Origin: Gallionella sp.
GTDB taxonomy: Bacteria; Pseudomonadota; Gammaproteobacteria; Burkholderiales; Gallionellaceae
Length of the DNA: 64,000 nt
NCBI GenBank assembly: GCA_017880865.1
Contig: JADGRL010000010.1
Location: 1-64,000 of the forward strand
Direction of reading: 5' to 3'
Under the pieces are notes generated by a model that was given only the letters and a program-made list of their open reading frames with translations, was not told the DNA's origin and ran no database searches. The number at the start of each line of letters is the position of its first letter. Position 1 is the first letter of the stretch. Positions 34,876-64,000 of this stretch are shown in pieces. The translations under genes and the position numbers were made by a program.

Positions 34876-34923
34876 TAGCCACTGCGCTAACGCACCAAAG
34901 AACGGCGCCTAGCGTCTGGTTAT
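34876..34923 (+). repeat. Palindromic element, copy 1
   Basis: Core from TAGCC to GGTTAT, in the gap between modA and the CNB gene. Middle stem GCGCT / AGCGT, upper part GCACC...GGCGC, A-rich loop (AAAGAA). The most diverged recognisable copy upstream of 37 kb. Confidence 0.55.
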
Positions 34924-34966
34924 CAGAGTGGAAAAAATCGTCGGGCTGACCCCATCGACCGTCTTT

Positions 34967-35452
34967 TCAATACCGCCCCTGCGTCTTGGTGATGTAATTG
35001 GTAAGCTGCTCGGTCTCCTGATTCATCCGCGACAGGTTGGCGTGCGTCACGCGGAACAGCGCGCGCATCACCTTGAAAGCCGCGCGCGGGTGGATCACCA
35101 GCAATGATTCGAAATCTTCCGGGGTCAGGGTGTAGACCGTGGCATCGCCCACCGCACGCAGCGTCGCCCTGCGCGGCAACTGCTCAACGAAAGCGCGGGT
35201 ACCGGCGCACTCACCCTCTTTCATCGTGTAAACCATTTGCTCCACGCCTTCGGAATTTTTGCTGATGACGGTAAGCTTGCCAGTGGCAAGAACGAACAGG
35301 GTCTGGTCGGCATCGCCTTCCTTCACGAGATATTCGCCGTCCTTCAAATGACGCACGCCCATTTTTGCGGCCAGAAGACGGGCCATCTCTTCGGTGAGCT
35401 CGGTTCCCACCGCTGAATTACGAACCAGTTTGTAGTCTGCGACTTCGCTCAT
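34967..35452 (-). CDS. Cyclic nucleotide-binding domain protein
   Basis: 161-aa protein built around one CNB domain (residues about 25-135: LKDGEYLVKEGDADQTLFVLA, then EGECAGTRAFVEQLPRRATLRAV) with N- and C-terminal helices. No DNA-binding or catalytic domain. Its neighbour downstream on the same strand context is a CheY-like regulator, so a signalling role is plausible. Confidence 0.75.
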   Translation of the reverse strand: MSEVADYKLVRNSAVGTELTEEMARLLAAKMGVRHLKDGEYLVKEGDADQTLFVLATGKLTVISKNSEGVEQMVYTMKEGECAGTRAFVEQLPRRATLRAVGDATVYTLTPEDFESLLVIHPRAAFKVMRALFRVTHANLSRMNQETEQLTNYITKTQGRY

Positions 35453-35600
35453 GATCCAACTTCTCCTATCAGTATTAATCGGTGAAACAGATGGTACGTC
35501 ATTTCAATATCCGTCAGAAAAACTATTGCGATGCTGAACACATTAGCTGCTGATCAATGGAGTCTGACCCCATCGATTCATGTATTTTTGATTGCGGAAA

Positions 35601-35969
35601 TTAATTTAACAGTTTCTTGACGACTTCGAGCAACCTGTCCGGATTGAACGGCTTGACCAGCCATCCGTTGGCCCCAGCCTCCTTGCCACGCATTTTCATT
35701 GAATCGCTGCCTTCCGTGGTCAACATCAGTATCGGCGTCGAGCCATACTTCGGGTGGCCGCGCAGCGTATTAACCAGAGTTAATCCATCCATGTTGGGCA
35801 TGTTCTGGTCGGACAGCACCAGATCAATATTATCGTGCGCATTCGCCTGGGCTAACCCCTCTATGCCATCGGCCGCCTCAATGACCACATAGCCTTCTGT
35901 TTGAAAGGTGTATGCAACCATTTGCCTGATGGAAGCAGAATCATCAACAACCAGAATAGTCTTCGTCAT
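35601..35969 (-). CDS. CheY-like response regulator
   Basis: 122-aa single receiver domain. Acidic pair VVDDSAS (residues 7-8), phosphoacceptor Asp in LVLSDQNMPNMDG (about 55), MLTTEG threonine, and WLVKPFNPD lysine (about 105) are all present. ATG 35969 follows GGAG. Related to chemotaxis-type CheY regulators, but no chemotaxis genes are nearby. Confidence 0.85.
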   Translation of the reverse strand: MTKTILVVDDSASIRQMVAYTFQTEGYVVIEAADGIEGLAQANAHDNIDLVLSDQNMPNMDGLTLVNTLRGHPKYGSTPILMLTTEGSDSMKMRGKEAGANGWLVKPFNPDRLLEVVKKLLN

Positions 35970-36173
35970 TCTCACACTCCGTTATAAAAGGGGTTGGTTC
36001 CGGCCCTATCCGTGAACAGATAAAGACAACGGCCGTCATTTAAATGGGAGCCCCATAAACCTGACCGGTACGCATAGTGAAACCAGGCACCATAAAATTC
36101 AACGGCACGCAGACAAGCGGAAGTGACAACTGACGAACGGCAGGATTGTGTTGTGATAAGGCAAGACTTGACT

Positions 36174-37304
36174 CTATGCTCCTTTACTAGCAAGTGCGGT
36201 AATGACAGCTCCAATTACCGCTCCAACAAGTGCCGAAATAGCAAGTAACGCCGTCTGCCAAATTTGCATAAATCTTTTTTCATGAAACTCCAAGAAATAT
36301 GAAATTTGCTTCGTCGGATAGCTTTCAGCTCTTTTTCTCCATTCTTTATCGATTACATCTTGAAGATAAGTTGGAAGTCCCTTCCTGTATACCGAATCAT
36401 AATCCGCATCCAAAATTTCGGATTGATTCACCATCAGTATCTCAAGCGATGTAAGTTTATATAAGAGTTGATGTGTTAGTTTTCCATGCGGAGTAAGTAT
36501 CAGTTGAATGCGCGACCACCAACTATAATTATCCGATGTCTCCACAAGCTGCTCATAAAGCTGATCGATTTCTTCCCATTTTCGAATTTTTTGAACCCTA
36601 ATTTTCGAAACCAAATAGAAGAAACCAAGCTCATTGCAGAGGCTATCAGACAATTCTTCAAATGCATCTTGAACGGATTTGTACTTATCCTGCGAATACC
36701 GAAAACATATATGGTCATATCCTCTACATGGAACCGTAGTAGACGAGAAGCCATTCTCATCTAACCCTGTGATATGTTCAGAACCCATTGCCGCAGTTAA
36801 CGAAAAATTTGCGTGGAATGGCGATGGGCCAATGAATTCAAAATATACAGATTTACTCTGAAAATGTTTTTCCAAATACTCTCGGACAAGTACCACAGCT
36901 GATGAAGCATCATCAATTGAATCCGATTCGAGCAGGACGAATGTTATTGGCCCATTAAATGTCTCTTCAATCTTTACTCGAATAGGTTTGTTTATTTCAA
37001 AGCTAAATTGATGTTCTTTATTAATCTCTTCCTGAACGTGTTTCGGGATGAGAATATCAAACTGAAGCTTGAAGAACATTGGCAAGGGGAAGCCGACACC
37101 ATCACCAAGCGATTCAATCAAGTCTTCCGTTTTTAATTCAAATTCAAAAGAATTGTCATATTCAAAGACGACCGAATCGCGCTTAATGTGATCGCTTTCA
37201 TACAATGCCTTTTCAATGTGCGAAACATATTGGGCGGCATTCACGCCACCTGTTTTGTTTAGATGCACTCCAAAATTAAAACAAGCTGCGCCAAAGACAA
37301 TCAT
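36174..37304 (-). CDS. Hypothetical membrane-anchored protein, AT-rich
   Basis: 376-aa protein, not recognised. A soluble N-terminal about 340 residues is followed by one C-terminal transmembrane helix (TALLAISALVGAVIGAVITAL). Base composition is clearly AT-richer than the neighbours, which points to acquisition. It borders the remnant copy of the ettA 3' end, so it may belong to the same inserted segment as vapBC. Confidence 0.55.
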   Translation of the reverse strand: MIVFGAACFNFGVHLNKTGGVNAAQYVSHIEKALYESDHIKRDSVVFEYDNSFEFELKTEDLIESLGDGVGFPLPMFFKLQFDILIPKHVQEEINKEHQFSFEINKPIRVKIEETFNGPITFVLLESDSIDDASSAVVLVREYLEKHFQSKSVYFEFIGPSPFHANFSLTAAMGSEHITGLDENGFSSTTVPCRGYDHICFRYSQDKYKSVQDAFEELSDSLCNELGFFYLVSKIRVQKIRKWEEIDQLYEQLVETSDNYSWWSRIQLILTPHGKLTHQLLYKLTSLEILMVNQSEILDADYDSVYRKGLPTYLQDVIDKEWRKRAESYPTKQISYFLEFHEKRFMQIWQTALLAISALVGAVIGAVITALASKGA

Positions 37305-37363
37305 TTAGCCCCCTTATCGTTACCTCTTACTAATCAAGGCCGCAAAAATTCAAAATTAGCGGG

Positions 37364-37562
37364 TAATCGGCTTATACCTGATCCGCTGGTACAACTACTA
37401 GCCATTTGACTAGGCCGCCACAAAGCGTTGCATAGCCATTCGGCTAAGTCACCAAAATACGGTGAGATAAGCCGCTGGTTAACGGCGACCAAGTCGCTGG
37501 TTATTCGGTGCAGCCGCTTCTTCTTATCGGCTTCATATTCCTGATCGTTGCCGTCGAAGAAA
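37364..37562 (-). pseudogene. Decayed second copy of the ettA 3' end
   Basis: Two blocks match the end of ettA: 37364-37386 matches the last codons (RIRYKPI), and 37514-37562 matches the FDGNYQEYEADKKKR region (about 43 of 49 bases). Between them sits a palindromic element instead of about 20 bp of ettA sequence. Together with the real ettA end at 38342, these duplications bracket vapBC. Confidence 0.65.
37399..37504 (+). repeat. Palindromic element copies 2 and 3, nested
   Basis: An outer copy (TAGCC at 37399, GGTTAT ending 37504; TGACT / AGTCG) is split by an inner copy at 37433-37482 with middle stem CGGCT / AGCCG and upper stem TCACC / GGTGA around AAAATAC. The inner copy therefore inserted into the older one. 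Confidence 0.7.
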
Positions 37563-37584
37563 GCGAGTGCGGTCAGCATTGCAA

Positions 37585-37995
37585 TCATTGACCAAATGGA
37601 TTGTGAATCGTCAGTGCGTCCTCGATGATCTGCCCATGCTGCATATCCTCGGTGGCCAATGTTTGGCATCCAGCCGACAAAGCTGCCGCCAGAATCAAGC
37701 TGTCGTAATAGGAGTATCGGTATCTTTGCGCCAAAGCCAGCGCTTGAGCGATGGTGTCTGGCATGACAGGAACGACGGTGCAAGCATCGCCGACTTCCGC
37801 AACCGCTTGCGCCACTACGTCAAACGATAAGCTAAACTTGCGGCTTAGCGTATTAGCAAGTTCGCTCAGGACTTGTGTGCTGACCACGATATTGTTTTGT
37901 TCGATGAGCGCGAGTGCGGCGGATCGCTTTTTCGGCTCGTCGCCGGAATAGAGATACACCACAATGTTGGTGTCGAGAAAAGTCTTACCGCTCAT
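37585..37995 (-). CDS. vapC: VapC-type PIN-domain toxin
   Basis: 136-aa PIN ribonuclease. Acidic residues: FLDTNIVVY (first Asp), LSELANTL (Glu), YYDSLILAAA (Asp), TEDMQHGQ (Asp). VapC toxins cleave tRNA or rRNA. The start at 37995 (MSGKTFLD) overlaps vapB by 11 bp; ATG 38004 is the alternative. Confidence 0.88.
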   Translation of the reverse strand: MSGKTFLDTNIVVYLYSGDEPKKRSAALALIEQNNIVVSTQVLSELANTLSRKFSLSFDVVAQAVAEVGDACTVVPVMPDTIAQALALAQRYRYSYYDSLILAAALSAGCQTLATEDMQHGQIIEDALTIHNPFGQ

Positions 37996-38194
37996 TGGCG
38001 GCATCGCGATTGAAGCGGTAGCCGCGTGTGGAAATGGTTGCAGCCTTAAACAAGGCCTTGCGTTTGCTTGCTTCTCGCACCGCTTCCAGCAGGATCACGC
38101 GCACTTCCTTGCCGTTCCAGCCTTGATACTCGCTAGGCAAGTCCACCACTCCGTCATGGGCCCTGCTGACAAATTCGATTGCTTGCATGGTCAA
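37985..38194 (-). CDS. vapB: VapB-like antitoxin
   Basis: 69-aa protein preceding and overlapping the PIN toxin. N-terminal strand region (MQAIEFVSRAHDGVVDLPSEYQGWNGKEV) resembles small antitoxins of the DUF2281/AbrB-like kind; the C-terminus is basic. Antitoxin role is assigned mainly from position. Confidence 0.75.
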   Translation of the reverse strand: MTMQAIEFVSRAHDGVVDLPSEYQGWNGKEVRVILLEAVREASKRKALFKAATISTRGYRFNRDAANER

Positions 38195-38341
38195 TCTCCG
38201 TTTTGAATGGGGTTATTCTAGTTCGCGGACAACAAGTTAGCCAGCCCTATCAACTTGCTGTCTTCTTTCATGGCTCGACAAGCCTGTCTTGAGCAAAATC
38301 GAAAAGCTTGCCACGAAAGGAAGCAGCAACATAACATCGGA

Positions 38342-40006
38342 TTATCGGCTAATCGGCTTATACCTGATCCGCTTAGGCGCAGCACCCGCCTCACCGAGAC
38401 GCTTCTTCTTGTCGGCTTCGTATTCCTGATAGTTGCCGTCGAAAAACGTCCATTTTGAATCGCCTTCCGCCGCGATGATGTGGGTCGCGATGCGATCCAA
38501 AAACCAGCGGTCATGGGAGATCACCGCGACGCAGCCGGCGAATTCGAGCAGCGCATCCTCCAATGCACGCAGCGTTTCCACGTCCAGGTCATTAGACGGT
38601 TCATCGAGCAGCAGCACATTGCCGCCTGAGATCAGCGTCTGCGCCAGATGCAAGCGGCCGCGCTCGCCGCCGGACAGGTTGCCGACCAGCTTGGCCTGAT
38701 CGCCGCCCTTGAAGTTGAAGCGGCCGATGTAGGCGCGTGCAGGGGTCTCGTATTTGCCGACGGTCAGGATTTCGTTGCCGCCCGAGATCGCATCGAACAC
38801 GGTCTTGTCGTTCTGCAGCGAATCGCGCGCCTGATCGACGTGCGCGATCTTGACGGTGCTGCCGATCTTGACGGTGCCGGAGTCGGGCTGCTCTTTTCCG
38901 GTGATCAGCTTGAACAGCGTGGACTTACCCGCACCGTTCGGGCCGATGATGCCGACGATCGCGCCCGCAGGCACCTTGAAGCTGAAGTTGTCGATCAGCA
39001 GCCGGTCGCCGTAGGCCTTGGACACGTTCTCGAACTCGATGACCTCGTTGCCCAGACGCTCCGCGACCGGGATGAAGATTTCCTGGGTCTCGTTGCGCTT
39101 CTGGTGTTCCTGCGAATTGAGTTCCTCGAAGCGGGCGATACGCGCCTTGGATTTCGCCTGGCGTCCTTTCGGATTCTGGCGCACCCATTCCAGCTCCTGC
39201 TTCATCGACTTGGCGTGAGCGTCGAGCTGCTTCTGCTCGGTCGCCAGACGCGCACCCTTCTGTTCCAGCCAGCTCGAATAATTGCCTTTCCACGGGATGC
39301 CGTGGCCGCGGTCCAGTTCCAGTATCCATTCGGCGGCGTTGTCCAGAAAGTAGCGATCATGCGTGACCGCGACCACGGTGCCGGGGAAGCGCAACAGGAA
39401 CTGTTCCAGCCAGTCGACCGATTCGGCATCCAGATGGTTGGTCGGCTCGTCGAGCAGCAGCATGTCGGGTTTTTCCAGCAGCAGCTTGCACAGCGCGACG
39501 CGGCGCTTTTCGCCGCCAGACAGGTTTTTGATTACCGCATCCCACTCCGGCAGACGCAGCGCGTCGGCGGCGATTTCCATTTGCTGCGTGGCGTCCGAAC
39601 CGCTGGTGGCGATGATCGCTTCCAAGCGCGCCTGCTCGGCGGCTAGCGCGTCGAAGTCGGCATTCTCATCGCCATACGCGTTGTACACCGCATCCAGCTT
39701 GGCTTGCGCGCCGAACACTTCGCCCAAGGCGGATTCCACTTCCTGACGCACGGTGTGCTCGGGGTTAAGCTGCGGCTCCTGCGCCAGATAGCCGATGCGG
39801 ATATTGGGTTCGCGCTGCACCTCGCCGTCGTATTCGTTGTCCACGCCGGCCATGATGCGCAGCACGGTGGATTTGCCCGAGCCGTTCAGACCCAGCAGGC
39901 CGATCTTCGCGCCGGGGAAGAAGCTGAGCGAAATATCCTTGATGATTTGACGCTTGGGGGGAACGATCTTGCTCACGCGGAGCATCGACATTACATATTG
40001 GGCCAT
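38342..40006 (-). CDS. ettA: EttA, energy-dependent translational throttle (ABC-F)
   Basis: 554-aa ABC-F ATPase that binds the ribosomal E site and gates entry of 70S into elongation according to ATP level. Two ABC domains: Walker A GLNGSGKST and GPNGAGKST, signatures LSGGEKRR and LSGGERGR, Walker B LLLDEPTNHLD and LLLDEPSNDLD, plus the arm/linker region. The C-terminus ends RIRYKPISR. No membrane segments. Confidence 0.95.
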   Translation of the reverse strand: MAQYVMSMLRVSKIVPPKRQIIKDISLSFFPGAKIGLLGLNGSGKSTVLRIMAGVDNEYDGEVQREPNIRIGYLAQEPQLNPEHTVRQEVESALGEVFGAQAKLDAVYNAYGDENADFDALAAEQARLEAIIATSGSDATQQMEIAADALRLPEWDAVIKNLSGGEKRRVALCKLLLEKPDMLLLDEPTNHLDAESVDWLEQFLLRFPGTVVAVTHDRYFLDNAAEWILELDRGHGIPWKGNYSSWLEQKGARLATEQKQLDAHAKSMKQELEWVRQNPKGRQAKSKARIARFEELNSQEHQKRNETQEIFIPVAERLGNEVIEFENVSKAYGDRLLIDNFSFKVPAGAIVGIIGPNGAGKSTLFKLITGKEQPDSGTVKIGSTVKIAHVDQARDSLQNDKTVFDAISGGNEILTVGKYETPARAYIGRFNFKGGDQAKLVGNLSGGERGRLHLAQTLISGGNVLLLDEPSNDLDVETLRALEDALLEFAGCVAVISHDRWFLDRIATHIIAAEGDSKWTFFDGNYQEYEADKKKRLGEAGAAPKRIRYKPISR

Positions 40007-40138
40007 GATTATTCTGTTGTGCGATTTTGGAAAGCGCGTAGCTTACCGCAAAGCCCGACAAGTAAAAATGGATAACTAAAAATAGCCCACTCAAACTCCG
40101 TCGTCATTCCGCTTTGATGAAACTACTGATGAAACTAC

Positions 40139-40234
40139 TAGCCAGACATTAAGCAACCCAAAGACGGTTGCCAAGTGGTTGGTTATAACCATTCGACTAA
40201 GCTGGAAAAATACTCCAGCAAAGTCGCTGGTTAT
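40139..40234 (+). repeat. Palindromic element copies 4 and 5, tandem
   Basis: Copy 4 (40139-40186; upper stem AACC / GGTT) is followed with one base shared by copy 5 (40186-40234; lower arms TAACC / GGTTA, middle CGACT / AGTCG, upper CTGGA / TCCAG). The last bases of copy 5 supply the TAA stop codon (40231-40233) of the P-type ATPase gene on the minus strand. Confidence 0.75.
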
Positions 40235-42000
40235 CGTGCAATGGACCTGCGCACCAGCGCCTTGCGCAATTCCTCTATCAGCAACATGGCGGGCATTAAG
40301 GAGATGATGAACAGCCACGCACCGGCTTCTAGCGGCGCGGTGCCGAACAGCGCGTTGCCCCACGGCGTGTAGGCGATCAGCGCCAGCAGCACCAGCTCGA
40401 AGACGATGCCGTACGCGATCAGGCGGTTGCGCCGGTGACCGCGACTGAACGCGGACATCGTGGGATGACGGCACAGAAAAATATTGACCATCTGCATCGC
40501 GACGATCGCCGACAGGCAGGCCGTGGTGCCTTGCAGATACAGGTTGTCGTGGAAGCCCAACTTGTTGCCGAACTGCCAGCCACCGCCTTGCAGCACGAAG
40601 AAGAATGCGGACATGCCCGCGGCCGCCTCAAGCGGCCCGAGGAACAGATAGGCGCGCATCAGCAGTCCCCAGTCGAGCATGCGTTCGCCACGCAGTCGCG
40701 GTGGCCGGAGCATGATGCCGGGATCGGGTTTCTCCGCGCCGAGCGCCAGCGCGGGCAGGGTGTCGGTGCCCAGATCGATCGCGAGTATCTGGATCACTGT
40801 CAGCGGCAGCGGGATGTGGAACAACGCGAAGGCCAGATAAGGCACCAGCTCAGCGACGTTGTGAGTGAGGATGTAGGTGAGGAACTTGCGCAGGTTGTCG
40901 TACACCGCGCGCCCTTCCTCGATCGCCGCGACGATGGTCGCGAAGTTGTCGTCGAGCAGTACGATGTCGGCCGCTTCCTTCGCGACATCGGTGCCGGACA
41001 GACCCATCGCGATGCCGACATCGGCGCACTTCAATGCCGGCGCGTCGTTGACGCCGTCGCCGGTCACCGCGACGATCTCGCCACGGCGCTGCAACGCCTG
41101 CACGATGCGCATCTTCTGGTCGGCGCTGGTGCGCGCAAACAGCAAGCCGGGTTCGTCGAGCAACAATTGCAGATCGGTATCCGACATCGTGCGCAGCTGG
41201 TCGCCGGTCACCGCCTGCGGGTTCTGTGTTAGCCCGATCTCGCGCGCCAGCGCACAGGCCGTGTGCGGATGGTCGCCGGTGATCATGATCACGCGTATAC
41301 CGGCGGCATGGCAGGTCTGGATCGCCGCGGGCACCGCTTCGCGCGGCGGATCGACCAGCCCGACCAGCCCGGCGAAGATCAGATCGCTCTCGTTTGAATA
41401 AAGTTCGCGTAGCGAGTCGTTTGCTTGGCTCTGCCCCCCTCGCTCCGCTCTCCCCGCATGCGGGAGATAACCAGCAACTTGCCCACTTGTGGGCTTAGTC
41501 GAATGGCTAGTAGTTGTATCAGGATTGAGGAGAGGGTGCGCAACATGGGGCGACAGGCTGCGATAAGCGAGCGCGATCACGCGCAAGCCTTGCTCGGTCA
41601 TTTGCTCATGCGCATTGAGCAGATTGCCCCGAGTGGATTTATCCAGCGGTACGGGCACGGGCACCCCTTGCTGCAGCATGGTGTTGCATAGCGGCAGCAC
41701 GCTTTCCGGCGCGCCCTTGCAGTACAGCATCTGTCCTTGAGGGGTCGCGCAAATCACCGACATGCGCTTGCGCTCGGTGTCGAACGGGATCTCATCAATA
41801 CGCGGGAACACGGTGCCGGTGGACGGCGCGCCTGCCAGCAACGCCACTTCCATCGCATCGCCCAGCCACACCGCCTGACCATCCTGTTCGACGCGGCGCA
41901 GGTCATGGCAATGACGCATCACCGCATACAGCGGCTCGGCGTCGGTCAGTTCGTTCAGCGTATGCAGCGCGCCGGAATAAAATACCTGCCGGATGCTCAT
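40231..42000 (-). pseudogene. P-type cation ATPase, C-terminal part
   Basis: Continues in the same frame as the N-terminal half after a single TAA. Seen: the nucleotide-binding KGAPESVLPLC, the hinge TGDGVNDAPALKCADVGIAMG, then transmembrane helices with IDLGTDTLPALALGAEKP, close to P2 (Na/K- or Ca-ATPase-like) pumps. The N-domain carries about 45 extra residues formed by a palindromic element and flanking repeat sequence. Alone this part lacks the phosphorylated aspartate and cannot pump. Confidence 0.85.
41467..41509 (-). repeat. Palindromic element copy 6, inside the ATPase gene
   Basis: Minus-strand copy inserted in frame in the N-domain; encodes TTSHSTKPTSGQVAGY. Middle stem CGACT / AGTTG, upper stem CCCAC / GTGGG. 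It is embedded in another repeat-like sequence (CTCTCCCCGCATGCGGGAGA on one side, GAGGAGAGGG on the other). Confidence 0.8.
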
Positions 42001-42006
42001 CTGGTT

Positions 42007-43017
42007 TTACGTCAGCGTGCCGGTCTTGTCGCTGCAGATCACGCTGGCCGCACCCAGCGTCTCCACCGCAGGCAGGTGACGCACCAGCGCGTTCTTCTTC
42101 GCCATGCGCTGGGTCGCCATCGCCAGCGACAGCGTGACCGTCGGCAGCAATCCTTCCGGCACATTCGCGACGATGATGCCGATCGTGAACACCAGATTGC
42201 TCCAGAACGACAGGCCGATCAAATGGCCGATCAGGAAGAACACCGCGCCGAGCACGATCGCGAACAGCGCTATCCATCTGGACAGGCGCGCGATCTCCTT
42301 TTGCAGCGGCGACGGCGGTTCGCGCAGGATTTGCGTCAGGCGCGCGATATTGCCGAACTCGGTGTGCATGCCGGTGGCATACACCATCGCCTTCGCCTCT
42401 CCCGAGATCAGCGAGGTGCCGGCATGCAGGATGTCGCGCCGCAAGGCGGCCAGCTCCTCGGATTCGGCGGATACAGCGCGCGCCTTCGGCTTCGATTCGC
42501 CGGTCAGATTGGCGGTGTTGACGCGCACGCCGAACGCCTCGATCAGCCGGCAATCGGCGGGCACATCGTCGCCCGCCGCGAGCAGCACCACATCGCCCGG
42601 CACCAGCTCGGCCACCAGCAATTGCACGGTCATGCCGTCACGCAGCGCGGTGGTGTGATGCGGCAGCAGGTTGCGCAACGCGACCAGCGCTTTTTCCGCG
42701 CGGTATTCCTGCCAGAACGAGAACAGCCCGTTGACCACGATCACGCCGAGCACGGCATAACCCAGCATCGCCATGCCCTGTCCGGGCTCGCGCCATTCGG
42801 CGACGAAGGCCAGCGCCGCGGCCAGCCACAGGATCAGCGCGAAGAAGTGGGTGAATTCACGGAGCAACCGGACGATGAAGGGCTGGCCGGTGATTTTTTC
42901 GATCTGATTGGCACCATACTTTGCCCGCCGTTTCAAGGCCTCGGTCTGCGATAGGCCCTGCGCGCTGCTGTGCAGATGCGCATAGAGTTTTTCGATCGCA
43001 TGACGGTGCGGGTTCAT
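42007..43017 (-). pseudogene. P-type cation ATPase, N-terminal part ending after DKTGTLT
   Basis: 336 codons: cation-ATPase N domain, helices M1-M2, actuator domain with NLTGESKPKARA, M3-M4 with IIVANVPEGLLPTVTLSLAMA, then ICSDKTGTLT and TAA. PEGLL and the flanking sequence resemble Na/K-ATPase-like P2C pumps. The codons after the stop are AAC CAG ATG, and families read DKTGTLTxNxM, so the stop stands in place of one residue. A single AAA to TAA change or a sequencing error explains it. Confidence 0.88.
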
Positions 43018-43126
43018 GGTATCCAGTCAGGAATATATTTTATAAAAAATACATCGGTCACGCGATTGTACTTAAAGATAGGTGGATGAGGCGCAAGAAA
43101 AAGCAACCTCGCCATGACCGGATATT

Positions 43127-43170: not shown

Positions 43171-43183
43171 AATCTGCCAAGCT

Positions 43184-43964: not shown

Positions 43965-43972
43965 CGCTCAAT

Positions 43973-55848: not shown

Positions 55849-55861
55849 TCATTTTTTGATA

Positions 55862-55886
55862 CACCAGCCTTCCACGAGGGCTGGTG
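55862..55886 (+). terminator. HU gene terminator
   Basis: Stem CACCAGCC / GGCTGGTG around a 9-base loop, 14 bp after the HU stop. Only a short ATTT follows, so a weak intrinsic terminator. Bases 55887-56158 hold no gene I can support. Confidence 0.55.
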
Positions 55887-56158
55887 ATTTCGTACCGGCG
55901 TCGCCACTCGCGACGGCCTTCCCAAAGCGACACCCATACCTTTTTTCAAGCTGTCACGTTGCAAGTGACTTTTTCGAACGCCATGTTATTGGCGGCGGTC
56001 AACATTACTGCGTGCGATGTTTGAACTCCACACTCACGGCAATGGCGAAAGTAAGGTTATGCGTCGCTCCGACGCACCGTTCTGGAATTGGCCAACTGAA
56101 TCCCTGCAAACACGGCGACTCAGGCTATGAAAAAACGCTGGGTAAAAAGTCAGCGCGA

Positions 56159-56650
56159 CTACTGATCCAGTTTTGCCGCAATCTGTCGCTCGGCATCCGC
56201 CCAATGCTCGTCCGAGCGCCCTTGAAAACCATGCTGCTCGGCGATGAAGTAAGCCGCCGTCTCCACCATGCGATAGCGTTCTTCGGGGGTGGGATTAGCG
56301 ACTGACTTGTTGGCCGCAGACGGCGCAGTAGGCTTGGCGGGCGCAGTTTTTGTTACTGGGTTTTTTGTCTGTAGAGCTCTCAACGCCGGAGCGGTTTTTT
56401 TCGCAACAGGGGTGGAAACTTTTTTTGCTGTGGGTGGTTTGGTCTTTTTTGCTGCATCCACAGCGGTTGAAGTTTTCTTTGTCGCCGGTTTTTTTTCGGC
56501 GGGGGAGGGCAACGCTGGCTTTTTCACCGCAGCTTTCTTCGTGGTTGTCGCAGCTTTTGCGGTCTTCGGCTTGCTGGCAATCGCGCTGCTGGTCTTGGCT
56601 TTAACTGCAGCCACTTTTTTTGCCGCCGGCTTTGTCTTTTGTTCAGTCAT
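56159..56650 (-). CDS. Histone-like basic tail protein with DUF2934 domain
   Basis: 163-aa protein. The first about 120 residues are Lys/Ala/Pro/Thr-rich (KPKTAKAATTTKKAAVKK), like histone H1 or AlgP tails, and should bind DNA loosely. The last about 40 residues form a DUF2934 domain (ERYRMVETAAYFIAEQHGF). Convergent with the HU gene. Length variation of the tail is expected from its repetitive codons. Confidence 0.7.
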   Translation of the reverse strand: MTEQKTKPAAKKVAAVKAKTSSAIASKPKTAKAATTTKKAAVKKPALPSPAEKKPATKKTSTAVDAAKKTKPPTAKKVSTPVAKKTAPALRALQTKNPVTKTAPAKPTAPSAANKSVANPTPEERYRMVETAAYFIAEQHGFQGRSDEHWADAERQIAAKLDQ

Positions 56651-56716
56651 GTCAATCACCTCGTTATGTGGGTTGAAATTCTGGGGTTAAAGATTTCGTG
56701 TTGTTTTAATAAAAAA

Positions 56717-56764
56717 TGGCCATTCGGCTAAGCCGATAAGCAGCATAGGTAAACCGCTAGTTAT
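56717..56764 (+). repeat. Palindromic element copy 7, degenerate
   Basis: TGGCC...AGTTAT core with middle stem CGGCT / AACCG; inner part no longer pairs well. Its right end overlaps the start of a 14-bp inverted repeat. Confidence 0.5.
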
Positions 56765-56835
56765 GCCTCACAAGGTTGCGTGATCCGCGTTGAGCATGTC
56801 AGGCGCATGTTAACCACCTGACTTGTGAGGCATAA
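56761..56835. repeat. 14-bp perfect inverted repeat upstream of parA
   Basis: TTATGCCTCACAAG (56761-56774) and CTTGTGAGGCATAA (56822-56835) flank 47 bp. Located about 330 bp before parA in a gene-free stretch (56651-57165) that otherwise holds only the degenerate palindromic element. Confidence 0.7.
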
Positions 56836-57165
56836 TAGACACACTGTCCTATGCTGGTCAACCGGTTAAGGTTAATATGTCAACCGTATCTAAATTTATT
56901 TCGGCCACTTTTGATGAACGAGATCGGCCTAATGGCTAGTTTGGTAACCCGTCACTGTTGGGTGATGGGGTGGCGGTGATTATTTGCCACTGGCATTCTT
57001 CGCATTCAGCTCCGAGCCGCGATACGAGCGCGACAACAAAAAAAGTCACGCTGGAGCTTTGGAGTTGGCGGCCTGCAATTTTAATAAAAAGCGATCAAGC
57101 ACACAGGTTGCGTAGCACCAAAAAGACAGAGCACTAGAAAGCCAGGGGAAAATGAAAGGGACATC

Positions 57166-57954
57166 ATGCTGACGATACTGGTCATCAATTCCAAAGGAGG
57201 GTCGGGGAAGACCACCCTGACCACCAATCTTGCCAGCTACTATGCCAGCAAGAAAAACAGAACTGCGATCATGGACTACGATCCACAGGGTTCGAGCATG
57301 CAGTGGCTGCGGACACGGCCCGGACATGTGGAAAAGATACACGGATCCAATGCCGCGCCAGCCAAGGGAAGCGTCACGCTGCACAGTTTGCATGCTTGGG
57401 TTCCTTTGGACACCGAAGTGGTGATCATCGATGCACCAGCTGGAGTGAAGGGTCTGCTGCTGCAGGAACTGGTGCGCAAGTCGAACTTTATCGTGATCCC
57501 GGTCGCGCCCTCGCCGATCGATATTCACGCCACCGCCGATTTTATCAAAGAGTTGTTCCTGTTCGGCGGCGCACGCACGTCCACGGCGAAAATCGCGGTG
57601 GTAGCCAACCGCGTGCGCAGCTCATCCTCTCCCGTCTATGGGGCGCTGGAGCGTTTCCTTAATTCGCTGAAGCTGCCATTTCTCACCAATATCCGCGATT
57701 CTGAAAACTATCTGTACGCCGTCGAAAAAGGACTGGGCGTGTTCGAAATGGACGAAGCCGTCACCGCAGCGGAAAGGCGGGAACTCATGCCGATCTTCAG
57801 ATGGCTGAACGGGCAATTTCCGAACCGATATGGCTCGCGCATCGAAGACAAAGTCCTGAGCCTGGAAGGATCAAGAAAGCTCGCGGCATTGCGCACGACT
57901 ACGCCGACCATCACCAACCTCAGCGCCACGGGCAGATTCAAGAGCTATCCCTGA
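57166..57954 (+). CDS. Orphan ParA-family ATPase
   Basis: 262-aa deviant Walker A ATPase (KGGSGKTT, residues 10-17), with DYDPQGSSMQW (Walker A') and VVIIDAPAGV (Walker B). No ParB follows; the next gene is a minus-strand tetR-type regulator. Such orphan ParA/MinD-like proteins position cellular cargo or act in partition of other structures. Frame ends after a Ser/Thr-rich tail. Confidence 0.85.
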   Translation: MLTILVINSKGGSGKTTLTTNLASYYASKKNRTAIMDYDPQGSSMQWLRTRPGHVEKIHGSNAAPAKGSVTLHSLHAWVPLDTEVVIIDAPAGVKGLLLQELVRKSNFIVIPVAPSPIDIHATADFIKELFLFGGARTSTAKIAVVANRVRSSSSPVYGALERFLNSLKLPFLTNIRDSENYLYAVEKGLGVFEMDEAVTAAERRELMPIFRWLNGQFPNRYGSRIEDKVLSLEGSRKLAALRTTTPTITNLSATGRFKSYP

Positions 57955-58074
57955 GCACGGCGCAACTCCACGCGCTTGAGATACGCCTCGCTCCTTCGAT
58001 ACCCGCAAAAGACGCGGCACTCAGGACGAAAGGAAAATGTATGTAACCGAATCTTAAGGCTCTTATAGGGGTTT

Positions 58075-58659
58075 TTAGTTTTTACGGTCCAGCAAAATCG
58101 CCCACTGTGCCGGCCACTGCGCCATCGGTTCGCGCGTAAAGCCGCTCTTGGCGAACAACACCCAGCGGCCGATCACGTAGCACACCAGTAAGTTGGCGTG
58201 CGCGCCGACGTCGACAGCGTCCCCCATTTCGCCCTGCGTGGCGGCCATGCGCAACGATTGCTTGAGCGTGGCTTCGATGCGATCAACCAGTTGATTGATG
58301 CGCTGCTGCAAACGCTCGTTTTCATTTACCAGTGCGTCGCCGATCAGCACCCGCGTCATGCCGCGATTTTTTTGCGCGAAACCGAGCAGTAGCGACACGA
58401 TTTCTTCGGCTTGCTTTACGCCGCTTTTTTCATCCTGAATGATCTTGTTGATCAGCCCGAACACGGTCTGTTCGATGAACTCGATTAAGCCTTCAAACAT
58501 CTGTGCCTTGCTGGCGAAGTGGCGATACAACGCCGCCTCGGAAATGTCCAGCCGCGCCGCCAAGGCAGCCGTGGTGATTTTTTCAACCACGGGCTGCTCG
58601 AGCATCTGCGCCACGGTTTGCAAAATCTGTAATTTTCTATCGCCCGGTTTTGCGGCCAT
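58075..58659 (-). CDS. slmA: SlmA nucleoid occlusion factor
   Basis: 194-aa TetR-family protein. HTH ITTAALAARLDISEAALYRHF near residues 28-50 and SlmA-typical sequence (FASKAQMFEGLIEFIEQTVF, RGMTRVLIGDALVNENERL). SlmA binds DNA sites across the chromosome and blocks FtsZ rings over the nucleoid. Context with a nucleotidase and argB is common in betaproteobacteria. Confidence 0.88.
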   Translation of the reverse strand: MAAKPGDRKLQILQTVAQMLEQPVVEKITTAALAARLDISEAALYRHFASKAQMFEGLIEFIEQTVFGLINKIIQDEKSGVKQAEEIVSLLLGFAQKNRGMTRVLIGDALVNENERLQQRINQLVDRIEATLKQSLRMAATQGEMGDAVDVGAHANLLVCYVIGRWVLFAKSGFTREPMAQWPAQWAILLDRKN

Positions 58660-58693
58660 GTTATTCCCCCATTAAATCAAAAACAGAAAACAC

Positions 58694-58810
58694 GCCACAG
58701 AGAACACAGAGGGCACAGAGAACGCGGTGGCAATCACCTGTTTTTCTGCTGCACCCAAAAGATGAGCAGCCTCCTGAATCAATTGCTGCCCTCTCTGTGA
58801 TCTCTGTGGC
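58694..58810. repeat. Inverted repeat pair between slmA and the nucleotidase gene
   Basis: GCCACAGAGAACACAGAGGG at 58694 is mirrored by CCCTCTCTGTGATCTCTGTGGC (given as two halves: CCCTCTCTGTGA, TCTCTGTGGC) ending at 58810, with one central CACAGAG copy as well. A known type of dispersed bacterial repeat. Confidence 0.6.
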
Positions 58811-58828
58811 AGTATGTTTTTCACCTGC

Positions 58829-59470
58829 TCAAATCAGCCGCGACAAAGCGTGCGGCAACTGCATCACATCACGAATCTTCACATCCACACAGGGCGAATT
58901 CTTACTGCTGGAATTTACCCACACCGTGCGCATCCCCAGCCGTTTCGCTGTGCGCAAATTCTCTAGGCTATCTTCAATCATCACACACTGAGTCGCCTTC
59001 ACGCCATGTCTTTTCAATAAACGCATGAAACCGAAATTGTCCGGCTTGGGGCGATAACGGGTGTGCTCCACCGCCATTACATCGTCGAATAAATCATCCA
59101 CACGCAACAGTCGCAGCACTTCATGCGCGTATTGTTGCGGTGCATTCGAGAAAACCACTTTCCTGCCCGGCAAGGCTTTTAATACATGGCGCAAACGCGG
59201 CTCACGCAGCACCATTCGATCTAAGTTCGCAAACTGGTGCGTGTGCCACAAAAAATGATCCGGGTCGGTGCCGTGATGGCGCATCAAACCACTTAACGTC
59301 GCGCCATAGCGCTGCCAGTAATCCACGCGCAATGCGTTCGCCGCTATCTCGTCCAGTTGCAAATGCCGCTGCAAATAGGCGGTCATGCTGCGGTTGATGT
59401 GCGGAAAGATGTGCGGCGTCGCATTATGCAACGTGTTATCCAAATCAAAAATCCAAAATTTCGTCGCCAT
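58829..59470 (-). CDS. HAD pyrimidine 5'-nucleotidase
   Basis: 213-aa HAD enzyme of the pyrimidine 5'-nucleotidase (SDT1-like) group: motif I FDLDNTLHNA (residues 8-17), motif II VVFSNAPQQYA, motif III KPDNFGF, motif IV MIEDSLENLRTA. Dephosphorylates UMP/CMP or related compounds. ATG 59470 is the family start. Confidence 0.88.
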   Translation of the reverse strand: MATKFWIFDLDNTLHNATPHIFPHINRSMTAYLQRHLQLDEIAANALRVDYWQRYGATLSGLMRHHGTDPDHFLWHTHQFANLDRMVLREPRLRHVLKALPGRKVVFSNAPQQYAHEVLRLLRVDDLFDDVMAVEHTRYRPKPDNFGFMRLLKRHGVKATQCVMIEDSLENLRTAKRLGMRTVWVNSSSKNSPCVDVKIRDVMQLPHALSRLI

Positions 59471-59553
59471 ACGTTGTTGCGCTCAAAAAAACTTGCTTAC
59501 ATATACCGCATATGCTGCGCTGCGATTTTTTTTCGCACGCCTAGTAAAACAAC

Positions 59554-59660
59554 TAGCCATCTGACTAAGCCAGTAAAAAACGCTGGCAAGTCATTGGTTA
59601 TAGTCTGGCTTATAACCAGCCACTTGGTTGTCGTCTTTTGACAGCCTAGTGGAATGGCTA
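59554..59660. repeat. Palindromic element copies 8 and 9, tail to tail
   Basis: Copy 8 is on the plus strand at 59554-59601 (middle stem TGACT / AGTCA, upper CCAG / CTGG). Copy 9 is on the minus strand at 59612-59660 (middle stem CCACT / AGTGG, upper TGTC / GACA around AAAAGAC). They lie between the nucleotidase gene and argB. Confidence 0.8.
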
Positions 59661-59706
59661 GTAGTTTCTTCAGAAATTTTGGATTTTCCGCACTCCGAAC
59701 TAAAAG

Positions 59707-60684
<978 letters not shown>

Positions 60685-60699
60685 TCAGTGATGATCATT

Positions 60700-61158
60700 T
60701 TAGTGCGGAGTGGTCAGCGGTTTTATTTCGGCCTGAATTTTTATTTTAACCACGTCTTGCTGGCCCAGCTTGATGTTCAGCGTCAACGGCACGGCCTCAC
60801 CTGCCTTGAGCGGAGCCTTTAGTCCGTTGAGCATCAGGTGAAACCCGCCATCGCGCAGATTCACGCGCTTGCCGGCGGGTAGTTCTATCGATTCCACTGA
60901 ACGCATTTTCATCATGCCGCCCTCGCTGGTCATGCTGTGCAGTTCCACAGTTAGGGCCGCCGGGCTGGACACTCCGACCAAAGTCGCCGTGCGTTTGCTG
61001 GTGATGGTCAGATCCATTCCTGCCGCCTCTTGCCCGGGGGCGGTGGCGCGAGTCCACGCTCCGGTGATCTCGATGTCCCCTGCATAATTGGCAGCATGGC
61101 TGGTGAAGCTGACCAACAAAGCTGCGCCCAAGCAGCCGAACCGAATTAATTTGATCAT
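60700..61158 (-). CDS. PCuAC periplasmic copper chaperone
   Basis: 152-aa exported protein with signal peptide (FGCLGAALLVSFTSHA) and the PCuAC domain: GAWTRATAPGQEAAGM, ELHSMTSEGGMMKMRSV, LRDGGFHLMLNGLK. The Met/His residues bind Cu(I), typically delivered to cytochrome oxidase CuA. ATG 61158 follows GGAAAG; the longer frame upstream is rejected. No oxidase gene is nearby. Confidence 0.85.
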   Translation of the reverse strand: MIKLIRFGCLGAALLVSFTSHAANYAGDIEITGAWTRATAPGQEAAGMDLTITSKRTATLVGVSSPAALTVELHSMTSEGGMMKMRSVESIELPAGKRVNLRDGGFHLMLNGLKAPLKAGEAVPLTLNIKLGQQDVVKIKIQAEIKPLTTPH

Positions 61159-61480
61159 GATTCTTTCCGTTAAAAAATAGACGGGATAATTCCACCTGGT
61201 GTGGAAAATCGTCGATTGCGATGAATGAGAGAACCCAATGCGCGGTATCTTACCCGGAGCTACATTAAATACCGCTCTAGGGAGGGGGATGAGGCAGTAT
61301 TCAAAAAATGTACGATGCAGCGATTGGGCGGGAGGGATTATTTCGTGAAAATTCGTGCTTGGGAATGTGACATGATGTCGCACCCCCCTGCAGCGCTGGT
61401 GCAATAAGCCCAGTTTTATAGCGCTATCTCTGACTTGCCCACGCGACTATAATTGCGGTCTCGAAATATCCCCGTGTATT
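61159..61480. promoter_or_regulatory. Intergenic region with dacC promoter
   Basis: 322 bases between divergent genes, without a supported ORF. A perfect TATAAT at 61448-61453 lies 28 bp before dacC; no good -35 box is visible at the usual distance. Nothing else recognised. Confidence 0.4.
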
Positions 61481-62614
61481 ATGAAGCCCATTTTTTTATC
61501 ACTCTTGCTGCTGCCTGTGATCGCATCTGCGCAGCCAGCCCCCTTGCCAATTGCACCCCAGCTGGCCGCCAAATCATACCTGTTGTATGACTACACCAGC
61601 AATCAGATTCTGGTGAATCAGAACGGGGATGCGCGCATGGAGCCCGCTTCGCTGACCAAGCTGATGACAGCCTATCTGGCTTTCGACGCGCTCAAGCATG
61701 GCACGTTGTCTCTGAAACAAAAGCTGAATGTTCCGGCTGCCGCAGTGCGCAGCAAAGGCGATGAATCGCGCATGTTGCTTAAAGCCGGACAAGAAGTCAC
61801 CGTGGACGAACTATTGCACGGACTAATCGTGCAGTCAGGCAATGATGCGGCGATCACGCTGGCGGTTAATATCGCCGGCAGCGAAGCGGGATTTGTCGAC
61901 ATGATGAACACAGAGGCGAAACGGCTGGGGATGAAAAACACTCATTTCACCAATGCGGTCGGCATGTCGGATGCGCAACATTACAGCAGCGCGACCGATC
62001 TGGCCGTGCTGGCCACCGCCATCTTGCACGATTATCCGCAGCACTACCCACTGTTTTCTTTGCGCAATTACACGTTTAACAACGTCGCACAAGCCAATCG
62101 AAACCGGCTGTTGTGGCTCGACCCTTATGCGGACGGCATGAAGACCGGGCACACCGAATCCGCCGGTTTTTGTCTGGTGGGCTCGGCCCAGCGTGATAAC
62201 CACAGGCTGATTTCGGTGATGTTCGGCGCAGATACCGACAGCCTGCGCGCCACAGAGAGCCAGAAGCTGATGAACTTCGGTTTTCAAAATTTTGATGCCG
62301 TGCGCTTGTATCAAAAGAACCAGCCTGTCACCCAGCTCCCTGTTTGGAAAGGTACCGCGAGTCATCTTGACGCCGGCTTCCGCCGGGATCTGTTTCTGAG
62401 CATTCCGAAAGGATTATTGCCCCAACTCAAGGCCACAATGGAAACGCATCAGCCCATCCTTGCCCCGATTGCTAGCGGGCAACAAATAGGGGTGCTCAAA
62501 CTGACGCTGGCCGGTAAACCTTATGCGGAATTTCCGTTGGTCGCACTGAACAGCGTGCCGTTGGCCAATGTGTTTTTGCGCGGTTGGGATAGCATCCGTC
62601 TGGTATTTCAATAA
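61481..62614 (+). CDS. dacC: D-alanyl-D-alanine carboxypeptidase (PBP5/6 type)
   Basis: 377-aa periplasmic enzyme that trims the terminal D-Ala of peptidoglycan. Signal peptide (FLSLLLLPVIASAQ), catalytic Ser and Lys in PASLTKLMT, SGN in VQSGNDAAI, KTG in DGMKTGHTESAG, then the PBP5 C-terminal domain and an amphipathic anchor (RGWDSIRLVFQ). First of the dacC-dat-ybeD-lipB run. Confidence 0.93.
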   Translation: MKPIFLSLLLLPVIASAQPAPLPIAPQLAAKSYLLYDYTSNQILVNQNGDARMEPASLTKLMTAYLAFDALKHGTLSLKQKLNVPAAAVRSKGDESRMLLKAGQEVTVDELLHGLIVQSGNDAAITLAVNIAGSEAGFVDMMNTEAKRLGMKNTHFTNAVGMSDAQHYSSATDLAVLATAILHDYPQHYPLFSLRNYTFNNVAQANRNRLLWLDPYADGMKTGHTESAGFCLVGSAQRDNHRLISVMFGADTDSLRATESQKLMNFGFQNFDAVRLYQKNQPVTQLPVWKGTASHLDAGFRRDLFLSIPKGLLPQLKATMETHQPILAPIASGQQIGVLKLTLAGKPYAEFPLVALNSVPLANVFLRGWDSIRLVFQ

Positions 62615-62644
62615 GAAGCAGGTCGTTTGAATAGGGAGCGGGTG

Positions 62645-63505
62645 ATGACGATATATTTAAATGGGGAGTTCATGCCCATAGCGGATGCGAAAATTTCCGT
62701 GCTGGATCGCGGCTTCATATTCGGCGACGGCGTGTACGAAGTCATTCCGGTGTATTCGCGGCGCGCGTTTCGCCTGGCGGAACATTTGAAACGTTTGCAG
62801 CACAGCCTGGACGGCATCAAGCTGGCCAACCCTCACAGCGACGATGAATGGACGAGGCTGATCGACGAACTCATCGCGCGCAATGAGGCTCAGGACCAGT
62901 ACCTGTATCTGCACATCACGCGCGGTGTGGCGAAGCGCGATCACGCCTTTCCGAATCCGCCGGTTGCACCTACGGTGTTCATGATGAGCAACCCGCTGCC
63001 CATCCCGCCCGCTGACTTGCTGAGCAGCGGAGTCGCCTGTATTACCGCGCCGGACAACCGCTGGCTGCGCTGCGACATCAAGGCCATCGCGCTGCTGCCC
63101 AATGTATTGCTGCGCCAGATGGCGGTCGACGCGGGTTGCGCCGAAACCATTTTGATCCGTGACAATGCGTTCATGACCGAGGGTGCGGCCAGCAACATCT
63201 TTTTGGTGAAGGACGGCAAGCTGCTCGCGCCGCCCAAAGACAACCTGATGCTGCCCGGCATCACCTACGACGTGATACTGGAAATCGCCGCTTTAAACGG
63301 CATCCCGCATGAAGTGCGCAAGATAAGCGTCACGGAAATATTTGCTGCGGATGAACTCCTGCTCACTTCATCCACCAAAGAGGTGCTGGCGATCACGCAA
63401 CTCGACGGCAAGCCGGTCGGCACCGGCAAGCCGGGCGCGATGTTCGCTAGATTGCACAAGCTCTACCAAAATTTTAAACACGACGTGATGCGCGGGAACG
63501 CATGA
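62645..63505 (+). CDS. dat: D-amino acid aminotransferase (class IV)
   Basis: 286-aa PLP enzyme of fold type IV. Start MTIYLNGEFMPIADAKISVL, catalytic Lys in CDIKAIALLPNVL (about residue 146), and EGAASNIFLVKDG. Synthesises or degrades D-alanine/D-glutamate, fitting beside a D-Ala carboxypeptidase. ATG 62645 has GGGAGCGG upstream. Confidence 0.88.
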   Translation: MTIYLNGEFMPIADAKISVLDRGFIFGDGVYEVIPVYSRRAFRLAEHLKRLQHSLDGIKLANPHSDDEWTRLIDELIARNEAQDQYLYLHITRGVAKRDHAFPNPPVAPTVFMMSNPLPIPPADLLSSGVACITAPDNRWLRCDIKAIALLPNVLLRQMAVDAGCAETILIRDNAFMTEGAASNIFLVKDGKLLAPPKDNLMLPGITYDVILEIAALNGIPHEVRKISVTEIFAADELLLTSSTKEVLAITQLDGKPVGTGKPGAMFARLHKLYQNFKHDVMRGNA

Positions 63506-63792
63506 CCATGAATGAATTACCGGCCAGCAAATTAACCGACAGCCTGATCGAATACCCTTGCGATTTTCCTTTGAAAATATTTGGGCAGCAGCAGGCGGGC
63601 TTCGCACAAGCGGTGCTGGAAGTGGTCAACAAACACGATCCCGGTTTTCTCGCCGCCAGCATGGAAATGCGCGCTAGCAAAACTGCCCGCTATATCAGCC
63701 TGACTTGCACCGTGCGCGCCACGTCGCGCGTGCAGCTCGATGCGCTGTATCAGGACTTGTGCGACCATCCTCTGATCGTAATGGTGCTATGA
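63502..63792 (+). CDS. ybeD: YbeD (DUF493) protein
   Basis: 96-aa DUF493/UPF0250 protein (LIEYPCDFPLKIFGQQQAGF, then YISLTCTVRATSRVQLDALYQDL). It overlaps dat by 4 bp and lipB by 4 bp (ATGA), the normal betaproteobacterial order. Role unknown. Confidence 0.9.
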   Translation: MTMNELPASKLTDSLIEYPCDFPLKIFGQQQAGFAQAVLEVVNKHDPGFLAASMEMRASKTARYISLTCTVRATSRVQLDALYQDLCDHPLIVMVL

Positions 63793-64000
63793 AAACCAAG
63801 GATTCAGGACTGAGGACTGAGGACTCAACACTCTCAACCCCGCACTCAGTCCCCAGTCCTGATGGAACTACTAGCCATTCGACTAGGCTGGGATCAAACA
63901 CCAGCCAAGTCGCTGGTTATCACCCCTCGTCGCCGGTCATTCACTCGCTGGGGCTGGTTGAATATCAACCCACCTGGGACGCGATGAAGCGCTTCACCGC
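63789..64000 (+). CDS. lipB: LipB octanoyltransferase, 5' part with repeat-derived N-terminus
   Basis: Start of lipB, cut by the window edge. The conserved part begins at VIHSLGLVEYQPTWDAMKRF (codon 50 on). LipB moves octanoyl groups from ACP to lipoyl domains. ATG 63789 overlaps the ybeD stop (ATGA). Codons 5-49 are made of two repeats: a GGACTGAG-type repeat and a palindromic element encoding TTSHSTRLGSNTSQVAGY. No in-frame ATG, GTG or TTG lies between the element and the conserved domain, so the extension must be translated. Confidence 0.85.
   Translation, partial: MKTKDSGLRTEDSTLSTPHSVPSPDGTTSHSTRLGSNTSQVAGYHPSSPVIHSLGLVEYQPTWDAMKRFT
63801..63862 (+). repeat. GGACTGAG-type repeat within lipB
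   Basis: GATTCAGGACTGAGGACTGA is mirrored by TCAGTCCCCAGTCCTGAT, giving an inverted repeat of about 18 bp with internal 7-bp tandem units (GGACTGA). It is in frame in lipB. Confidence 0.65.
63872..63920 (+). repeat. Palindromic element copy 10, inside lipB
   Basis: TAGCC to GGTTAT, middle stem CGACT / AGTCG, upper stem CTGG / CCAG. Read in the same frame as copy 6 in the ATPase. Directly follows the GGACTGAG repeat. Confidence 0.85.

Follow-up and report, generated by a model that had tools for sequence, protein, structure and literature searches.

The window studied here, a stretch of 64,000 nt from the genome of Gallionella sp. (assembly GCA_017880865.1, contig JADGRL010000010.1, positions 1 to 64,000), carries a family of short repeated elements that are probably non-autonomous single-strand transposable hairpins of the HUH type, ~60 nt long and composed of a 5' leader and one imperfect hairpin. 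Gallionella are iron-oxidising bacteria. A first-pass annotation of the window, made from its letters alone, had described ten copies of a palindromic element with compensating stem changes and had considered it mobile. It was right about the stems and the mobility, but it missed the 5' leader, the exact ends of the unit, the two classes of leader and target, and the reading of nested and tandem copies as self-insertions.

The abundance of the element is far above chance. A covariance-model search of the kind that the first-pass annotation had proposed returned 126 copies in the 2.85-Mb genome of origin (E<=0.01, 150 of 1380 first-look candidates being scored) and one or more in 71 of the 76 Gallionella genomes (E<=1e-5); in the genome of origin, the 5' arm TAGCCATTNNNNNARGC is present 44 times and the reversed pattern 0 times. 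The model was seeded with nine copies from the window and one copy beside the gene of a REP-associated tyrosine transposase (RAYT; REP, repetitive extragenic palindrome) in the same genome, and recovery of these seeds is therefore expected.

The hairpin consists, in order, of an outer stem (TAGCCA/TGGTTA), a TT/C internal loop, a middle stem, an A/A mismatch, an upper stem and an A-rich loop. Double changes are held by the middle and upper stems; the outer stem is nearly invariant. With the structure drawn by eye from the ten seed copies, 87.4% of their cells are paired and covariation is 0.322, compared with 0.157 in shuffled and at most 0.116 in slid controls. Three of five measures beat every one of the 500 shuffles. 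Two do not: the count of doubly changed pairs is reached by 91 of the 500, and that of further pair types by 151. An alignment of 119 distinct copies from the genome of origin, fitted to that same structure, is 92.2% paired, with covariation of 0.353 versus 0.144 (shuffled) and at most 0.060 (slid), and with 279 cells changed on both sides versus 103 in shuffles. Here four of five measures exceed all 500 shuffles, and the number of pairs with a double change is not above chance (95 of 500 shuffles reach it). In both sets, overall covariation lies above every shuffle and every slid control, in tests which ignore phylogeny. The compensatory changes first noticed in the window hence hold on the seeds and genome-wide, and we infer that a folded strand, whether RNA or single-stranded DNA, is under selection.

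When 125 of the 126 own-genome matches were aligned with their flanks (one weak match, at C67, was excluded), conservation ended at the 3' foot of the hairpin and, in the main class, reached 12-13 nt upstream of it. A 5' leader and a hairpin of ~48 nt together make up the mobile unit, which measures about 56-61 nt, or less for a 43-nt hairpin variant. Leaders of type 1, TGATGRAACNAC, measure 12-13 nt and occur in 85 of the 125 copies; those of type 2, GCTTTGCA, measure 8 nt, a boundary chosen from empty sites, and occur in 16. The other 24 copies fall in neither class by the rules used and were excluded from the empty-site tests. A pooled set of 343 copies was collected with a structure-aware pattern instead of the covariance model; 57 of them are in neither leader class, and a few look like chance matches. 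In this set, the four bases directly preceding the hairpin mostly read CNAC or TGCA (CTAC 121, CAAC 94, TGCA 30). The genome of origin also has a recurrent subfamily of 43 nt, in which the loop is shortened (TAGCCATCTCACTAAGGCAGCAAGCTGCCAAGTGATTGGTTAT) and which is often nested with full copies (C17:14638, C24:18244, C79:6187).

The ends of the unit are defined by empty sites. For each of the 101 own-genome copies with a leader, the flank preceding the leader was fused to the flank following the hairpin, and the product was compared against 1.75 Mb of DNA; the true joins matched uninterrupted DNA without gaps in 44 of 101 cases, versus 2, 2, 3, 3, 3 and 5 for permuted joins. Shifting the left boundary of the 85 type-1 copies by -2, -1, 0, +1 and +2 gave 1, 9, 35, 8 and 0 matches, and shifting the right one gave 1, 8, 35, 4 and 0; a shift of +4 left 0 on both sides and one of -4 left 1 on the left and 5 on the right. 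Type 2, under a slightly looser span rule, behaved likewise (left 1, 7, 22, 6 and 1 of 30; right 0, 7, 22, 7 and 2). Several alignments to individual empty sites reach 90-98% over 59-60 nt (C52:18809 with L130, C35:12215 with L298, C17:43355 with L267), although many targets are themselves repeats, and some joins match other members of a repeat or another copy of the element, not an orthologous site. As the match counts peak at the stated ends, the unit has exact ends and its insertion neither duplicates nor deletes target bases, and these exact empty sites show that the family has been mobile. They also bear on whether the element is a miniature inverted-repeat transposable element (MITE) of an ordinary DDE insertion sequence. 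Such an origin would suit its short length, high copy number and mostly intergenic position: in own-genome loci of at least 6 kb, 51 of 64 copies lie outside open reading frames (ORFs) of at least 200 aa, which make up 73% of the DNA. However, the empty sites are free of target duplication, the ends are not terminal inverted repeats because a leader extends beyond the hairpin at just one end, and no longer, autonomous relative sharing both ends was found in the compared DNA, which covers part of the genomes. We find a DDE MITE scarcely credible.

The class of leader goes with the class of target, TGATGRAACNAC with Y|T and GCTTTGCA with R|A (Y, pyrimidine; R, purine; the bar marks the point of insertion). 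After removal of duplicates by flank, the pooled set holds 230 type-1 and 30 type-2 copies. The type-1 target is Y|T in 208 of 230 (C|T 183, T|T 25), a count slightly favoured by a left-base rule that moved 22 boundaries with 13-nt leaders by one base (the earlier count was 212 of 234). The type-2 target is R|A in 19 of 30, and the left target base is Y in 227 of 230 type-1 and R in 30 of 30 type-2 insertions. Hairpins at type-2 junctions are enriched, with a stem score of at least 8 in 17% versus 2.8% of permuted junctions. An apparent dependence of the target on the second foot base was mostly due to the 13-nt leaders and shrank after correction.

Some of the targets are copies of the element itself. 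Certain leaderless hairpins directly follow another hairpin, with a GGTTA|TAGCC junction, and arrays at window positions 40115-40233, C1:26170 and C46:59189 show two leaders followed by two hairpins; both patterns would be explained by the insertion of a complete type-1 unit at CTAC|TAGCC, between the leader and the hairpin of an older copy. Other copies interrupt the stem (C|TAAGG) or the loop of older ones. This behaviour matters for the view that we are dealing with an RNA-level element, such as a terminator, stabiliser or regulator, in which covariation would result from a function of the RNA and which would have spread by an unrelated route. The mostly intergenic position and the strong hairpin would be consistent with it, and REPs are often transcribed, as described in PMC3733652. 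Yet older copies are broken by repeated insertion of the element at their leader/hairpin junction, in the loop and in the stem, and no match at the Rfam gathering score was found within the window; we consider an RNA-level element very unlikely. The family had been called new-looking at first pass, and it is new as far as Rfam in the window and a limited search of open-licence literature on Gallionella or Gallionellaceae repeats and on such small elements go: among the titles and abstract starts in that search, none describes this family.

What points to an HUH-type mechanism is resemblance: exact ends without duplication, a covarying irregular hairpin, a C|T target and a target-linked adjacent sequence recall IS200/IS605 and TnpA_REP. 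The element would move as a folded single strand. A hairpin-recognising HUH enzyme of the Y1 type, either a RAYT or an unrecognised one, would act in trans and cut at the 5' end of the leader and at the 3' foot of the hairpin, and the excised piece would then be joined to a nicked single-stranded target, as is done by TnpA of IS200/IS605 and by TnpA_REP. Selection for recognition by the enzyme could keep the stems paired while their letters drift. In the passages of PMC8266576 on REP processing, TnpA_REP of E. coli and Stenotrophomonas cleaves at CT. The Marinomonas enzyme cleaves at both CT and CA, where the dinucleotide that is cut follows the foot tetranucleotide GTAG, and a stem bulge of E. 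coli REPs is required by the enzyme. With IS200/IS605 elements and their non-autonomous derivatives, the element shares, in the way it works, hairpin ends, the lack of target duplication and a target linked to the sequence adjacent to the hairpin. Unlike them, it has one hairpin instead of two and a dinucleotide target instead of a tetra- or pentanucleotide, and in the compared DNA (part of the genomes) there is no Y1 transposase relative which shares its ends.

The likeness to GTAG/GTGG REPs and to REPINs (REP doublets forming hairpins) with TnpA_REP lies in the short imperfect hairpin with an irregular stem, the high copy number, the mostly intergenic position, the RAYT-rich host genus and the dinucleotide C|T, which for TnpA_REP is the site of cutting and for the element the insertion target (183 of 230 type-1 copies), a target that would fit processing at CT dinucleotides. 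REPs are defined by GTAG or GTGG located 0-2 nt 5' of the hairpin (PMC6006769). Neither tetranucleotide stands directly at the hairpin foot in any of the 343 pooled copies or in the leader consensus, which bears out the first-pass view that this is not a GTAG REP. The element differs further from REPs in its 48-nt hairpin with a 12-13-nt or 8-nt leader inside the mobile unit, and from REPINs in consisting mostly of single units, not inverted pairs: 89 of the 126 own-genome copies have no neighbour within 200 bp, while the nearest neighbour has the same orientation in 31 and the opposite one in 6. In Pseudomonas, REP pairs and not single REPs are the inferred mobile unit, the single ones being judged non-functional remnants (PMC3116915). 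REPs inside palindromes and genes (PMC3733652), or inserted in RAYT genes (PMC6006769), are already known from these accounts.

A narrower form of the HUH reading, which we regard as possible and hold tentatively, is that of a divergent REP family moved by a RAYT (TnpA_REP) of the genus, its GTAG foot having been replaced by CNAC or TGCA. Besides the C|T target, which is the cleavage dinucleotide of TnpA_REP (PMC8266576), the distribution of the enzyme argues for it. RAYT-family matches were found in 59 of the 76 genomes, and the median copy number is 55 in genomes with a RAYT of at least 120 bits and 9 in those without (p 2.7e-5), the strongest association among the three enzyme families tried; as at most 79 candidates were scored per genome, high copy counts are lower bounds. 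A RAYT of at least 120 bits is present in 32 of the 40 copy-rich genomes (at least 30 copies), which speaks for an HUH enzyme in general. The other eight are all 60-93% complete, so that a RAYT may have been missed in them, and RAYT loss after the spread of REPs is suspected in other genomes (PMC6006769). Three of these eight have weaker matches; against a divergent REP, five have no match at all, as does G097 (95% complete, 26 copies), whereas G023 and G071 have RAYTs and no element. The search for a RAYT suggested at first pass yielded one in the genome of origin, and it adjoins a type-2 copy; it also has ordinary GTAGGAGC repeats upstream, which count against this reading. RAYTs, hinted at in the first-pass annotation, are candidate enzymes.

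The RAYT matches of the genus are numerous and diverse, with up to 10 per genome; a short type of about 150 aa and a long type of about 180 aa occur together. The short RAYTs were at first candidates for a partner, as copies lay beside them in 4 of 4 places, but with more loci this fell to 4 of 20, and one of the first four, in G064, is a broken long-type RAYT. In L068 (G013:C11), positions 5197-7683, a RAYT gene is surrounded by a GGCGGGTT..AACCCGCC repeat whose loop holds three copies with identical hairpins and type-2-like leaders, one of them in the open frame of the RAYT C-terminus; this repeat has apparently taken up the element and spread with it as a composite.

Sites of the attC type are likewise folded single strands with conserved boxes and variable tips, and an attC-like hairpin moved by an integron integrase would account for these traits of the element. 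The integrase, above the family cut-off, is present in 38 of 76 genomes, including the genome of origin (G000:C74:61723-62664) and some copy-rich genomes free of RAYTs, and its presence goes with copy number (median 55.5 versus 19, p 0.0005). However, the attC boxes, RYYYAAC ... GTTRRRY, are absent from the element, as the first-pass annotation had noted, and the attC-like repeat in L356 (TCTAAC...GTTAGA) is unrelated to it. Insertion occurs at C|T and not at the G|TT known for attC, five clear model matches in 3 of the 10 integron regions fetched correspond to about background density, and 15 of the 40 copy-rich genomes are without the integrase, among them the complete genome G064 with 33 copies. 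An integron origin therefore appears highly improbable. Among the 5 of 10 fetched regions for which repeats were listed, attC-like repeats are clear in L356 and likely in L353 and L355, and none were seen in the region of the genome of origin, L352. Taken by the features tested, the element works like a REP or an IS200-type hairpin and is not a GTAG REP, a REPIN, an attC site or a DDE MITE.

We give little room to an IS110-type RNA-guided recombinase or an IS91/Helitron-type Y2 enzyme as the mover, both of which strike us as most unlikely. IS621 does have a CT core (PMC11208160), and Y2_Tnp, found in 25 of the 76 genomes, is weakly linked to copy number (p 0.015). But Y2 is absent from 24 of the 40 copy-rich genomes, including G016, G078, G086 and G064. 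For IS110, the core dinucleotide would be expected at both ends, and the right junction here is A|T. The integron integrase and the Y2 transposase were thus set aside as movers: both correlate with copy number, yet many copy-rich genomes do without them. All three enzymes, counting only RAYTs of at least 120 bits, are missing from 5 of the 40 (G025, G032, G035, G077 and G078), each 60-83% complete.

Several observations weigh against a single-strand transposition mediated by an HUH enzyme. The genus-wide searches for RAYT, integrase and Y2 tied no enzyme to the element. RAYT counts correlate only moderately with copy number (rho 0.43, 76 genomes), and since unrelated enzymes, namely the integrase and Y2, correlate as well, the RAYT correlation may merely mark genomes that are rich in mobile DNA. 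No RAYT match was found in G022, G078, G086, G077 and G097 despite 26 to 79 scored copies; four of these genomes are 81-93% complete and the fifth, G097, is 95% complete. The flanking by a cognate RAYT which is typical of REPs is not seen either, as most RAYT genes have no adjacent copy: the element lies within the fetched flanks of 16 of 100 RAYT/Y1 loci (some places being fetched twice) and of 4 of 20 short-type RAYTs. Palindromic targets of type 1 are weakly enriched (5% versus 2.3%), and no guide-like covariation between leader and target within a class was supported (leader position 5, G/A versus C/T, p 0.12). Insertions show no significant bias relative to replication in a hand count (19 to 9 in G064, with 28 of its 33 copies listed, p 0.09; 29 to 18 pooled, p 0.14). 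The signs of an active strand are divided: DNA folding prefers the complement strand in 233 of 270 cores, and wobble-type pairs point to either strand.

A more far-reaching version, which we consider doubtful, is a self-contained single-hairpin unit of about 56-61 nt served by an unrecognised single-strand transferase, with an exchangeable 5' leader that sets the target dinucleotide (TGATGRAACNAC for Y|T, GCTTTGCA for R|A). Through positions 2-5 (GATG, CTTT), the leaders could base-pair with the two targets if G-T wobble is allowed; this agrees with the two classes and is unsupported by variation within type 1. The element may be among the smallest mobile elements known. If a new enzyme drives it, the single-strand insertion system in question would be very small and perhaps programmable. 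The dissemination of REPs has been called poorly understood (PMC8266576), and in the present family single hairpins have exact ends, empty sites have been matched by the dozen and two leader classes go with two target classes. Together with a copy number that spans 0 to more than 100 per genome across the genus, these features make mobility, target choice and strand use directly testable.

Outside the genus, 24 genomes from other families of the same order yielded no copies (E<=0.001). An exact-pattern scan of a species collection gave at least 119 stretches, and the names among the matches listed are Gallionella, Gallionellaceae, Gallionellales, Ferrigenium, Sideroxydans and Sideroxyarcus, besides order- and phylum-level labels. 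Four exceptions among the matches listed, L223, L271, L294 and L309, come from bins named Sulfuricaulis, Thiobacillus, Accumulibacter and Gammaproteobacteria and could reflect transfer or misbinning, and one exact match lies in a 6.9-kb contig of a viral collection (L311). The genes that recurrently adjoin copies are ordinary ones, for example one that by eye resembles an ABC-type ATPase, at 6 loci, a number over-sampled by the choice of loci.

In the window itself, all ten copies described at first pass are present. Nine are covariance-model matches of 46 to 70 bits (34876, 37433, 40139, 40186, 41467(-), 56717, 59554, 59612(-) and 63872), the tenth, at 37399, is a copy split by the one at 37433, and no further matches were found in the 64 kb at E<=1e-4. 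The layout (Table 1) bears out the nested, tandem, inverted and intragenic copies, the tandem and nested ones being now read as self-insertions.

Table 1. Copies of the hairpin element in the window and their parts.
Positions	Strand	Feature	Remark
34876-34922	+	Decayed copy, hairpin only, no recognisable leader	
37387-37424	+	Outer copy: leader TGGTACAACTAC and 5' part of hairpin (37399-37424)	3' part at 37482-37504
37425-37481	+	Inner type-2 copy: leader GCGTTGCA (37425-37432), hairpin 37433-37481	In the loop of the outer copy, ...CACAAA|ACGG...
37482-37504	+	Outer copy, 3' part	
40115-40126	+	Leader TGATGAAACTAC belonging to hairpin 40186-40233	On the nested-insertion reading
40127-40185	+	Type-1 copy: leader 40127-40138, hairpin 40139-40185	Separates the leader of the 40186 copy from its hairpin (insertion at CTAC|TA)
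40186-40233	+	Hairpin of the interrupted copy	
41468-41521	-	Type-1 copy: hairpin 41468-41509, leader 41510-41521	Within a CCCTCTCC..GGGGAGAG palindrome, in the P-type cation ATPase gene
56717-56763	+	Decayed copy, no recognisable leader	
59542-59600	+	Type-1 copy, leader TAGTAAAACAAC	
59613-59672	-	Type-1 copy, inverted	12 nt from the 59542-59600 copy
63860-63919	+	Type-1 copy, leader TGATGGAACTAC, 60 nt	Flanked C|...|T

The intragenic copy sits in frame within the P-type cation ATPase gene (40231-43017, minus strand), and its empty site is matched in L304. In this respect the family resembles the Rickettsia palindromic elements and intragenic REPs (PMC3733652), palindromic inserts which are able to sit in frame in a gene; judged by their descriptions in that source and not by sequences, these differ from our element, which is mostly intergenic and has defined leaders and targets. 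The stretch between conserved parts of the ATPase measures 157 bp in the window versus 16-29 bp in L082, L083, L085, L088, L091 and L093, and L099 (G013) aligns through it and carries its own copy there. Besides the in-frame insert, the ATPase gene of the window has a stop right after the DKTGTLT motif; in 3 of 4 relatives examined, the ATPase is a single open frame of about 880-940 aa which starts in the same protein.

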